This document shows, piece after piece, positions 1,478-9,398 of a stretch of DNA of 34,104 bases. The notes under the pieces are model-generated. The model did not search any database and was not told where the DNA came from. It saw only the letters and a program-made list of their open reading frames with translations. The DNA comes from Nocardiopsis sp. (GTDB lineage: Bacteria > Actinomycetota > Actinomycetes > Streptosporangiales > Streptosporangiaceae). The translations under genes were made by a program, and so were the position numbers. Within the stretch, counting starts at the first letter, position 1; every line of letters begins with the position of its first letter. The stretch spans positions 1 through 34,104 of the forward strand of contig JAJKHX010000199.1 in NCBI GenBank assembly GCA_021154785.1. Reading direction: 5' to 3'.

Positions 1478-1843
1478 CTAGGCGTCGTCGGGCGGCTTTT
1501 CCCCCGGTCCGCGGGCATCGGACCCGCCCGCATCGGGCCCGTGCCAGCGGAGCTTGACGTCGAGGTGGGCGCCGGCGTTGGCCGACGCGATGACGCCGCC
1601 GAGCTTGCCGTCGAGCGTGACGCCGAAGCAGAGCTCGATCTCCTCCGGACGCCGGGCCATCGCGCGGAAGCCGTCGATCATCTGCTCGGCCGCGGCGGTC
1701 ACCGGTCCCAGCGCTTCGCGCAGGGTCTTCTCCGCGGCTTCCAGCCGGTCGCCGAGGCCGACGGCGCCGCTGCCGGCCCGGGGCGGCGACGCGACCGCGA
1801 CGGTCGTCCCGTCGTCCAGGACGAATTCGATGGCATCGGTCAT
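1478..1843 (-). CDS. Trypsin-co-occurring domain (Trypco1 / CU044_2847-type) protein
   Basis: 121 aa MTDAIEFVLDDGTTVAVASP...LEAAEKTLREALGPVTAAAEQMIDGFRAMARRPEEIELCFGVTLDGKLGGVIASANAGAHLDVKLRW matches the recognised pattern of this family. Confidence 0.75.
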   Translation of the reverse strand: MTDAIEFVLDDGTTVAVASPPRAGSGAVGLGDRLEAAEKTLREALGPVTAAAEQMIDGFRAMARRPEEIELCFGVTLDGKLGGVIASANAGAHLDVKLRWHGPDAGGSDARGPGEKPPDDA

Positions 1844-1868
1844 GGGGCTCCTTCGCCATAGCTGGTTC

Positions 1869-5653: not shown

Positions 5654-7732
5654 TTACGTGCTCACCGCGACCCGGTCACGCCTTCGCCGCAACCCCCGCT
5701 GCCACCACCATTCGACCGGCGGCCGCAGGTTATGCGCCAGATCGACCAGAGCGAAGAAGTCTGCCCTGGTAACGGCGAAGTTCGCCAGTTCCGGCAGCAT
5801 CTCCGCGAGGGCGAGCCAGTCACCGTCGACCCAGGACATCCCGTACCGGATCTCGGTCCGCAGCGCGATCCGCACCCCGGCGCCGATCCTGAGCTCATCG
5901 GTCAGCTTCCAGGCCCTCGCCAGGTCCGCGGAGTCAGGCACGCTGGATCCGCTGACCGCGGCGAGCAGCCGCACCACGGCGATCCGCGCCTCGGGCTCGA
6001 AGCGGAGTTCCCGCGCCTGGAGTTCACCCGCCAGCCGTTCGGCGGCGGCCACCGCCTCGGCCCGCCGCCCCGCCAGCAGGTGCGTCCGGGCCAGGCCGAA
6101 GGCGGCCGCGCCGAGCGCCGGCGCGGTGTCGGCCACCGCCTCGTAGCGCTGGCACGCCTCGGCCAGGTCGTCCCGGATCTCGGCGCAGAAGCCCAGCGCC
6201 AGCAACGGGATCAGCTCACCCGGCAGCGCGTCCCTGACCTCGGTGAAATGGCTCGCGGCCGGGCCCGCGGCGCCACGGCCGAGCGCGATCAGGCCGCTGT
6301 ACCAGGCCCGGATCCAGGACCATTCCGGCAGCCGCGTCTCGCCGAGGGCACCGTCCGCGTCGTCCAGTGCGCCTCGCCGCACGGCGGCGCGGCAGGCGAC
6401 CAGCTGGGCTTCGCAGTCGCGGGTCAGGGCGGGATCGTCGGGATCGGACAGCGGCGCGGGCAGCGCCCGGACCGCGTCGGCGGGCGCGGGTGCCTCGAAC
6501 GGCTCGGCCATCGTGAGCCTGCCGTCCGCGGTCACCCGGGCCGTGAGCCAGTCGGCCAGCGGACGCGGCGCGGCGAGCCCGCTGTGCCGCGGCTCGGTCA
6601 TCGTCCCGAACACCGCGGACGGCCGCGAGATCCGGCGCGGGGCCGGGGCGGCCGGCACGATCTGCCGGATCACGCCGCTGAGCTGTTCCGCGAACTGGCG
6701 GGCGGAGGTGAACCGGCGCTCCGGCTCGGTGGTGTCGGTGGCGCGGCTCAGCAACCGGTCCAGCGCGCGGATCCCCGGCGTGCCCAGGTCGCGCAGGTGC
6801 CGGCGGCACAGCACCTTGAGAGTCATGCCGAGGCAGAACAGGTCGAACCCGGCGGTGGGGGCCGTGTGCTCGCGGTCCGTTCGCGGCGGCGCGTAGGCCA
6901 CCGTGTAGCTGGTGACCGGACCCGGCCGGCCCAGCTTCCACACCGCCCCGAAGTCGATGAGCCGCACCCGGTCCCGCGGCCCGTCCGCGCCCCGCTCGCT
7001 GAACCGGATGATGTTCTCCGGCTTCACGTCGATGTGCAGCAGCCCCCGGGCATGCAGGTAGTCGAGCGCCTGGAGGATCTGGAGCCCGTGCGCCAGGATC
7101 ACCTCGATCCGGTCATCGGGCTGGACGGACAGCGGCGTGCCGTGGACGTACTCCAGCACGAGGTAGGGTCCTTCGGGCTCGTAGCCGTAGATCCGGACGA
7201 TGCTGTCGTGCCGGAGCCCGGCCAGCGCGTCGCGTTCCAGCCGCGCCGTCTCGGCCACCGCCTGGGTCAGGTCTTTCAGCACCACGTCGGTGCCGAGGTT
7301 GCGGTCGTACGCCAGCAGCGCCGCGCCGAAGGCGCCGGCGCCGAGCGTGCGCTTGATCTCGTACCGCCCGGCGATGACCCGCCCGGGGCGCGCGCCGCCG
7401 AAGTCGAACGGCTGGCCGCAGTTCGGGCAGAATCCGGTGACGCGCGCGGGCTCGTCGCCGTCAGCCCGCCCGACCGGCTCCTGGCACTGCCCGCAGAACC
7501 GGTTTTCCTCGGCCACGATCGTGCCGGTGCGCACCGGCTGCTCGCCGGTGACCGGCGGGACGGCACCGGACTCGACCAGGCTCAGCCCCCACCATGGTTC
7601 GGCCCGGACCAGTCCCGTGCGCCCGGCTCCGGGGGCAGGCGCCGGCCCGAGCGGCCGCCGGTCGCAGGCGGAGCAGAACCCCTGATCGTCGATCTCGCCC
7701 CGGCCGCAGTCGGGGCGGTCGCACCTAGCCAC
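5654..7732 (-). CDS. PknG-like serine/threonine protein kinase (zinc ribbons, kinase, TPR)
   Basis: N-terminal CDRPDCGRGEIDDQGFCSACDRRP and CGQCQ...CPNCG; kinase RYEIKRTLGAGAFG, VVLKDL, HIDVKPENI, LIDFGAVW; helical repeat C-terminus. GTG start at 7732 overlaps the upstream protease stop. Confidence 0.85.
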   Translation of the reverse strand: MARCDRPDCGRGEIDDQGFCSACDRRPLGPAPAPGAGRTGLVRAEPWWGLSLVESGAVPPVTGEQPVRTGTIVAEENRFCGQCQEPVGRADGDEPARVTGFCPNCGQPFDFGGARPGRVIAGRYEIKRTLGAGAFGAALLAYDRNLGTDVVLKDLTQAVAETARLERDALAGLRHDSIVRIYGYEPEGPYLVLEYVHGTPLSVQPDDRIEVILAHGLQILQALDYLHARGLLHIDVKPENIIRFSERGADGPRDRVRLIDFGAVWKLGRPGPVTSYTVAYAPPRTDREHTAPTAGFDLFCLGMTLKVLCRRHLRDLGTPGIRALDRLLSRATDTTEPERRFTSARQFAEQLSGVIRQIVPAAPAPRRISRPSAVFGTMTEPRHSGLAAPRPLADWLTARVTADGRLTMAEPFEAPAPADAVRALPAPLSDPDDPALTRDCEAQLVACRAAVRRGALDDADGALGETRLPEWSWIRAWYSGLIALGRGAAGPAASHFTEVRDALPGELIPLLALGFCAEIRDDLAEACQRYEAVADTAPALGAAAFGLARTHLLAGRRAEAVAAAERLAGELQARELRFEPEARIAVVRLLAAVSGSSVPDSADLARAWKLTDELRIGAGVRIALRTEIRYGMSWVDGDWLALAEMLPELANFAVTRADFFALVDLAHNLRPPVEWWWQRGLRRRRDRVAVST

Positions 7733-9398
7733 GATCCTTCTCCTCGATCCGGCGATCGGCCGCGGCCGCGTACTGATCCACCAGCCGGCGGGCGGCGGTG
7801 AGGTCGATCGGGGCCTGCCACAGCGCCCGCGCGGCCTGGTCGTGCAGGTCACCGAGCGCGGAATCCTCGTCACCGAAGTGCCGCGCGGCGCGCACCCGGT
7901 TCACCTCGAGCGTGCGCCGCAGGTCATCCAGGCGCTCGCTCCAGCGCCGGGACCGCTGACTGAACGCCGCCACATCGGCCAGCGCGGCCGCGGCGGCCCT
8001 GGCGATGGCCATGAGCTCGGGACTCGGTTCCGCGCCGCGGGCGACGGCCAGCCGGACCCGCAGCCGCGGCGCCTGGGCCCGCGGCAGCGCCGGCGGCCGG
8101 CGGAAACGGCGCTCGTTCTCGCGGCTGAGCCAGGCGGCGTCCGCCTCGGCGGCGGCGAGTTCGGCGACCCGCGCCTCGGCATCGCACGAGCCGGCCGGGG
8201 AACCCCCGGTGAGCGGTTCGGGATCCAGCGACACCTCGTACGGCAGGGTTTCCGGCAGCGGCCCGTCGAACCCGAGGACCAGCCGGACGCCGTGGGACCG
8301 GGCCCGGACGGCCAGCGGCCGCAGCACCTCGCGGACGAGCGCGCCGGGTGACTGCGCCCGGTCGACGCCGGTGATGACCAGGGAGGCCGGCGGTTCACGC
8401 CGCAGCAGCCGGTCGGTGAGGCGGGGATCGTCCACGGGAAGGCCAAATCGTTCGGCTAGATAATCCGTGACCTCGGCCACCGTCTTGCCGCGGGCGTCGA
8501 ACGCGGCGTCGATGGTCCCGAGCCCGAGGACCGTATCCCGGGGCGCCGCGGCGAACTCGGCCCCGGAGGTCCCGGCGCGGGTGGCCGGGTCCGCCGTGCG
8601 GACCAGCCGGACCAGCCAGGTGGTGTCCGGGCCGGCCGCCCCGCCCGGCAGCACCACGGTCCCGGCCCATCCCCCGGTCAGCAGGCCTTTCAGCTCCCGG
8701 GTAAGGGCGACCCGCAGCGCATCGCCGGGCCCGAGCTCCGGCAGCCCGGCGGTGGCCGCGCCCAGCCGGTCGGCGGGCTGGCCGACGACGTAGGGGCCGA
8801 AGTGATCAGGCAGGTACCCGCGGATCGTCTCGGTCGGCATCATCCAGGCGGCCCGGGCATCCGCGTTGCGGTAGTCCGCCACCACGATGCCGATCACGTG
8901 GCCGGCATGGTCGCCGTCGAGCACCGCCACGCCGGCCCCCGAGTAGCCCGGCTCGATCCACTGCCCGTCGGCGCTGACCCGGTTCAGCAGGCCGAACTCG
9001 CCGCCGCGGCCCCCGTCCCCGGCCAGTTCCGCGTCGACCGAGATGCCGTACGGCTCGGCCCGCGGGAAGCCGTGCACCCGGACCCGGCCGCCGGACAGGG
9101 GGGCACACCACAGCCGGGTGTGGGCACCGCACGGCGTCGGCTGGTCGAGCTCGAGCAGCGCCACGTCGCCGCGCCGGGTGTCGCCGCCCCGGTAGACCCA
9201 CGAACCCGGGACGACGCGCGCCCCGATCCGCCATTCGGGCAGGCAGACGGCGCTGGAGACGGTGACCCGCTCATTCTCGTCCCCGACGACGTGCGCGCAG
9301 GTGAGCACGTGCCGTTCGTCGAGCAGCACCCCGGCACCGCGTCTCCCCCCGCTCACCCGGACCCGCCAGGGGTGCTCCGCATGATGATGCGTCCCCAT
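7725..9398 (-). CDS. Trypsin-like serine protease with C-terminal degenerate NTPase-like region and helical tail
   Basis: MGTHHHAEHPWRVRVSGGRRGAGVLLDERHVLTCAHVVG (His), RGDVALLELD (Asp), EPGYSGAGV (Ser). Start at 9398 is preceded by a purine-rich RBS; the ORF-track start at 9467 is less likely. Confidence 0.85.
   Translation of the reverse strand: MGTHHHAEHPWRVRVSGGRRGAGVLLDERHVLTCAHVVGDENERVTVSSAVCLPEWRIGARVVPGSWVYRGGDTRRGDVALLELDQPTPCGAHTRLWCAPLSGGRVRVHGFPRAEPYGISVDAELAGDGGRGGEFGLLNRVSADGQWIEPGYSGAGVAVLDGDHAGHVIGIVVADYRNADARAAWMMPTETIRGYLPDHFGPYVVGQPADRLGAATAGLPELGPGDALRVALTRELKGLLTGGWAGTVVLPGGAAGPDTTWLVRLVRTADPATRAGTSGAEFAAAPRDTVLGLGTIDAAFDARGKTVAEVTDYLAERFGLPVDDPRLTDRLLRREPPASLVITGVDRAQSPGALVREVLRPLAVRARSHGVRLVLGFDGPLPETLPYEVSLDPEPLTGGSPAGSCDAEARVAELAAAEADAAWLSRENERRFRRPPALPRAQAPRLRVRLAVARGAEPSPELMAIARAAAAALADVAAFSQRSRRWSERLDDLRRTLEVNRVRAARHFGDEDSALGDLHDQAARALWQAPIDLTAARRLVDQYAAAADRRIEEKDRG

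Follow-up and report, generated by a model that had tools for sequence, protein, structure and literature searches.

What is a PknG-type protein kinase doing in an operon that is led by a trypsin-type protease? The question is raised by a contig of the soil actinobacterium Nocardiopsis sp. (JAJKHX010000199.1, 34,104 nucleotides, hereafter the window), on which genes for a serine protease (the lead gene), a PknG-type kinase, a VWA protein, a membrane protein with four transmembrane (TM) helices, a lipoprotein of the solute-binding protein (SBP) type and a Trypco1 protein follow one another. The PknG kinases of mycobacteria and Corynebacterium receive their signal from GlnH by way of GlnX (PMC6069109, PMC9769921). 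The reading favoured here, on which our confidence is evenly divided, is that the operon encodes a modified GlnH-GlnX-PknG sensor, its output switched from the reading and removal of phosphate, the business of FHA and PP2C proteins, to regulated proteolysis. The PknG sensor family is known; the variant with a protease lead, Trypco1 and a sugar-type SBP is new in the literature searched, where no description of a PknG operon with a trypsin-like protease in Streptomyces was found, subscription papers and preprints lying outside the scope of that search.

The original prediction, made from the letters of the window, placed six same-strand reading frames at 1478-9398, which overlap by 8, 4 and 4 nt at three junctions and leave 64 and 25 nt free at the other two, and took them for a single operon. 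All six are present, the coordinates, overlaps and gaps are exact, and the claim of one operon is upheld by a gene order conserved across species. GTDB species genomes were searched with an alignment of the membrane protein, which gave 26 named loci, all from Streptomyces or Actinacidiphila; 20 of them show the full order protease–kinase–VWA–TM–SBP–Trypco1. Protein identity across the loci with the six-gene order is around 40-60% and the flanking genes are mostly different. Since the order is complete in so many of these loci, the six genes are one conserved unit, far beyond chance, and the conserved neighbourhood in related genomes on which the original prediction had staked its case was looked for and found. 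In two of the remaining six the contig ends within the locus (L017, L032), two have no adjacent Trypco1 gene (L026, L038) and two look degenerate (L013, L014); L014 retains the kinase, TM and SBP genes only, with a protease-like start on its kinase reading frame. Outside the named loci the distribution is scattered: among 300 genomes of the order, 7 have a relative of the TM protein at 1e-10, and many protein relatives derive from metagenomes.

Class-wide relatives of the kinase were then taken with their flanks and annotated by profiles built in this analysis, giving 92 loci with a kinase, counts among which include related species. Two kinds of PknG module are present among them. The ordinary kind contains GlnX, an amino-acid-type SBP (GlnH), a coiled-coil lead, PP2C, VWA and an FHA protein, the gene for which may encode a local target of the kinase. 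A trypsin-type lead is absent from 58 of the 92 loci, and these hold PP2C in 36 cases, FHA in 36 and Trypco1 in none, with an SBP that usually belongs to the amino-acid family. Where a trypsin-type lead is present (34 loci), neither PP2C nor FHA occurs, but Trypco1 does in 27 cases and a family-1 SBP in 33. The trypsin-type lead and PP2C/FHA are therefore mutually exclusive (0/34 versus 36/58), and Trypco1 never occurs without trypsin across the 92 loci. On the kinase tree there are 4-5 independent switches between the two kinds of module, and in none of them does Trypco1 go against trypsin. The Nocardiopsis genome of the window also holds an ordinary module (L057, 1-8459: FHA, GlnX, family-3 SBP, kinase, coiled-coil lead and PP2C); the window operon is thus a second system and not this genome's form of the known one. 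Mixed forms exist as well, such as L046, in which trypsin lead, kinase and VWA are accompanied by divergently placed genes for GlnX, a family-3 SBP and Trypco1. Many Actinomycetes (L047, L048, L056, L063, L099 and others) carry the ordinary module with its unannotated coiled-coil lead, PP2C, VWA and FHA genes beside GlnX, GlnH and PknG. Among the ordinary modules on the tree also lies L093:7397-14656, with a short lead without protease and a family-1 SBP, which is read as a separate exchange of the SBP.

The lead protein matches Trypsin_2 in a hidden Markov model (HMM) search (E=1.4e-10) and has, by hydropathy, neither a signal peptide nor a TM helix. Residues H36, D78 and S153 are invariant in 60/60 lead homologues; with this His-Asp-Ser triad intact, the protein is predicted to be an active cytoplasmic S1 serine protease. 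Its AlphaFold2 model, a confident one (predicted local distance difference test, pLDDT, 88.6), has three parts, a trypsin domain, an alpha/beta domain and a helical C-terminus. Searched against the PDB, the model found HtrA/DegP and S. griseus trypsin, only the trypsin part being matched among the 50 matches listed, and any reading of the middle domain therefore rests on motifs and weak profile matches: a G-rich loop without the Walker A lysine followed by an invariant W261-L262, an invariant D346 in the Asp strand, and weak NACHT-type matches, with E 0.13 and 0.25, in a pair of sibling leads. The domain is read from these as a degenerate P-loop (STAND/NACHT-like) domain, which is suggestive only. 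The C-terminal helices share ancestry, by phmmer (1.3e-7 and 2.8e-7) and by profile, with the C-terminal end of the coiled-coil lead in ordinary PknG modules; because they are the constant part beside the kinase, whatever effector precedes them, they are proposed as the best candidate for kinase docking. In L053, another mixed form, the sibling lead at L053:4433-5485 has a different N-terminal domain, nucleotide-cyclase-like by eye and not detected by Pfam or NCBIfam, and its locus has no Trypco1 gene.

The kinase gives matches to its zinc/rubredoxin, kinase and TPR domains (PknG_rubred 8e-14, Pkinase 3e-23, PknG_TPR 2e-22), and a profile of 10 kinases scores 587 bits against the entire length of M. 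tuberculosis PknG (2pzi). No TM helix or signal was found by hydropathy. The catalytic Lys, the catalytic-loop Asp and the metal-binding Asp are conserved in the kinases of all 34 trypsin-type modules, so the motifs are intact and an active protein kinase is predicted. On the kinase tree the trypsin-type modules, together with four that lack trypsin (L014, L050, L053, L094), are set apart from the ordinary modules by a supported branch (29 rows on their side; SH-like approximate likelihood ratio test, SH-aLRT, 99). A single clade of all trypsin-type kinases was rejected by the approximately unbiased (AU) test (p 0.0001), a result in keeping with members of the group having lost or exchanged the protease. 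Furthermore, at L095:8272-12573, on an 8.5-Mb contig of a Streptomyces-group genome, protease, helical linker, PknG-type kinase and TPR form one reading frame of 1434 aa; a VWA gene was not found at that locus. The apparently degenerate locus L013 was considered as another such fusion and rejected, since it lacks an internal stretch and encodes the TPR part of the kinase in a different frame; it is read as a deletion or an assembly fault. Two further loci (L078, L080) have PknG-type kinases without GlnX, SBP, VWA or lead gene within the fetched flanks.

The membrane protein belongs to no Pfam family, and its match to NCBIfam GlnX (1.8e-7) scores 30.6, below the cut-off of 250; aligned with the GlnX profile by hhalign it gives a probability of 95.5 over 162 columns. 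Judged by TM spacing, the four TM helices and the first extracytoplasmic domain of GlnX are kept, and around 25 residues take the place of the second extracytoplasmic domain of around 190, so that of the four helices and two extracytoplasmic domains of a full GlnX one domain is missing. Homologues in L051 and L053 are intermediate, and these two with L046 bridge the window protein to GlnX. On this comparison it is a GlnX-like protein that has lost its second extracytoplasmic domain. The SBP has an N-terminal signal with a cysteine and matches SBP_bac_1 (9.7e-16; SBP_bac_1/8); the HMM search gave it no family-3 (amino-acid-type, GlnH) match, and its nearest solved relatives bind oligosaccharides, among them the chitin-oligosaccharide-binding NagB2 and maltose-binding protein. 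Across the 34 trypsin-type loci a single ABC-permease-like motif occurs, at a distance of 8 kb from the SBP gene, and a sensory role for the SBP is therefore probable.

The VWA protein (VWA_3 1.8e-11, and a weak match to DZR) has a DxSxS metal-site motif and a C-terminal zinc ribbon; hydropathy shows one weak stretch, inside the VWA fold. The Trypco1 protein, which has no TM helix or signal by hydropathy, is well above both cut-offs (PF19493 1.7e-21, 77.1 bits against 24.6; NF041216 61.3 against 23); its predicted model is of low quality (pLDDT 60.3), and a fold search from it is meaningless. The original prediction had proposed homology to the PknG/GlnX/solute-binding sensor and a cytoplasmic protease with a Trypco1 partner. 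The former stands, given the full-length PknG, the GlnX-related TM protein and the solute-binding lipoprotein, and so does the latter, given the intact triad, the lack of signal or TM helix and the Trypco1 scores. Its comparison with TerY-P triads, of which PP2C is a component, was rejected: the VWA matches are generic, no TerY-type domain was found, PP2C is absent from the 34 trypsin-type loci, and the VWA protein shares one profile family with the VWA gene found in ordinary PknG clusters. The positions of all features are collected in Table 1. Directly downstream of the Trypco1 gene, frames at window 629-1309 resemble, by eye, a broken transposase of the insertion sequence (IS) type.

Table 1. 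Genes of the window operon and domains of its lead protein.
Feature	Length or residues	Position in window	Strand	Basis
Lead gene, trypsin-type serine protease	557 aa	7725..9398	minus	Trypsin_2 HMM, model, hydropathy
Trypsin domain of lead	aa 1-205	8784..9398	minus	catalytic H36, D78, S153
Alpha/beta domain of lead	aa 227-377	8268..8720	minus	alternating strands and helices in model
C-terminal helical region of lead	aa 407-556	7731..8180	minus	homology to ordinary lead protein
PknG-type kinase, GTG start	692 aa	5654..7732	minus	PknG_rubred, Pkinase and PknG_TPR HMMs
VWA protein	505 aa	4072..5589	minus	VWA_3 HMM
Four-TM membrane protein	319 aa	3116..4075	minus	weak NCBIfam GlnX, hhalign, TM spacing
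Family-1 (sugar-type) solute-binding lipoprotein	416 aa	1869..3119	minus	SBP_bac_1 HMM
Trypco1 protein	121 aa	1478..1843	minus	PF19493, NF041216

If the operon is indeed a sensor with a proteolytic output, the lipoprotein SBP would bind a small molecule outside the cell, probably not an amino acid, and the shortened GlnX-like protein would signal the occupied state of the SBP through the membrane to the TPR part of the kinase in the cytoplasm, the direction from SBP through TM protein to kinase being carried over from the GlnH-GlnX-PknG systems of relatives. The C-terminal helices of the trypsin-type lead would provide the docking site for the kinase, and the VWA protein would be a scaffold or substrate receptor; phosphorylation inside this complex would gate the protease, Trypco1 would serve as an adaptor or a restraint on it, and limited cutting of one or more cytoplasmic targets would be the response. 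Ligand, docking, direction of control, substrates and the role of Trypco1 are what we infer in this scheme; the gene content and order, the homologies, the intact catalytic residues, the helical region shared by the two kinds of lead and the fusion of protease and kinase in a relative are what it starts from as observed.

Several points weigh against it. The protease is not always needed, since L014 (kinase, TM and SBP, without protease, VWA or Trypco1) and L050 (kinase, VWA, TM and SBP, without a lead) dispense with it, and an adjacent Trypco1 is missing in 7 of the 34 protease modules. The association statistics are inflated by kinship because the independent switches are few; in a kinship-corrected association test 4-5 of them are too few for significance. 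The protease could act on the kinase or the sensor instead, the ligand class of the SBP is a guess at family level, and no experimental study of this operon was found in the literature searched. The kinase–TM–SBP core is the most persistent part of the module, with protease, VWA and Trypco1 lost in L014 and the lead wanting in L050. This speaks for a system that is still mainly a nutrient sensor and acts through phosphorylation of metabolic targets, with a protease that serves only to trim or turn over components of the sensor complex and so reset it; a metabolic role is also that of the ordinary PknG modules (PMC6069109, PMC9769921). However, the phosphate-handling partners expected of such a sensor, PP2C and FHA, are absent from 34/34 trypsin-type modules, the genome already has its ordinary module and the protease triad is invariant, and we consider this explanation unlikely, though credible. 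Alternatively, control could run the other way, proteolysis of the kinase or the VWA protein turning the pathway on or off; the fusion and the gene overlap show coupling and not its direction. Since the homologous lead of ordinary modules has no protease domain, the position of the lead does not require cutting of the kinase, and this we regard as very unlikely.

A role in defence, in which an invasion cue would lead trypsin and Trypco1 to cleave a host protein and so arrest growth, a mechanism put forward for other Trypco1 systems, is suggested by the origin of the Trypco1 name in a trypsin link within predicted conflict systems (PMC7159879), by the possible degenerate STAND-like domain of the lead and by the sibling lead of L053, which appears to exchange its N-terminal domain. 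Against this, gene content is stable and not variable, the sensor is an extracytoplasmic solute-binding lipoprotein and no MoxR or VMAP gene is among the six operon genes. Furthermore, the lead had no match in phage records nor the kinase in plasmid records, so that a phage or plasmid element was rejected, and PADLOC gave generic kinase and weak protease matches only (best 0.0092); for these reasons an immune role, though possible, has little support, and the defence explanation is quite unlikely. Finally, SBP_bac_1 proteins are usually parts of importers, and the SBP gene could belong to an ordinary ABC importer that lies by chance beside unrelated signalling genes. The order of the six genes is nevertheless kept across species where the flanks change, with almost no permease motif nearby; the importer reading was rejected on these grounds, and chance neighbourhood is scarcely credible.

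The favoured reading, a sensor with a proteolytic output, can be placed in a wider proposal, held tentatively and a little short of an even chance: that PknG-type sensors are a plug-in chassis whose SBP, count of GlnX sensory domains and lead effector are exchanged as units, so that a single transmembrane kinase design can drive metabolic control by phosphate reading in one case and a cytoplasmic protease partnered by Trypco1 in another. If true, the chassis would amount to a ligand-gated kinase-to-protease pathway of a kind undescribed in the literature searched. PknG signalling is studied for tuberculosis and for industrial amino-acid production, and here a Trypco1-protease pair sits behind a sensor whose first steps have been worked out in relatives; the docking partners of PknG in other actinobacteria and the role of Trypco1 can therefore be tested with a defined input in laboratory Streptomyces. 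SBPs linked to PknG have been predicted to bind amino acids (PMC6069109), a prediction to which the sugar-type SBP runs counter; in Streptomyces other kinases, SGR_4432 and SCO1468, are also linked to solute-binding genes (PMC6069109).

The name Trypco1 was chosen because the domain occurs together with trypsin in MoxR-vWA systems (PMC7159879), in an account where PknG and substrate-binding proteins are not mentioned; the name serves as an adapter label in a further paper (PMC10907252). Like the MoxR-vWA (VMAP) ternary conflict systems, the window operon combines a trypsin-type protease with Trypco1 and has a VWA protein; unlike them, its sensor is an SBP-TM-PknG chain and its VWA is of the PknG-cluster kind, and no match to a MoxR AAA+ ATPase or VMAP was found among the six operon proteins, the flanking genes not having been scanned for them. 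With the GAP1-N2 theme of kinase, PP2C and standalone vWA (PMC7159879) it shares a kinase, predicted to be active, with a zinc ribbon beside a standalone VWA gene, but it lacks GAP1, the FNIII protein and PP2C and has the protease, SBP and Trypco1. As in GlnH-GlnX-PknG (PMC6069109, PMC9769921), a full-length PknG-type kinase, a four-TM GlnX-related protein and a solute-binding lipoprotein are encoded together; unlike that system, the SBP is of family 1 and not family 3, the GlnX-like protein is without the second extracytoplasmic domain, and protease, VWA and Trypco1 are added. An FHA gene, such as would encode a GarA/OdhI-type substrate for the kinase, is absent from all 34 trypsin-type modules. 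Although it has a trypsin-type lead and Trypco1 and is without PP2C and FHA, the window operon resembles the extended PknG module of many Actinomycetes (for example L047, L057, L099) in its homologous kinase, its VWA protein and the C-terminal part of its lead.

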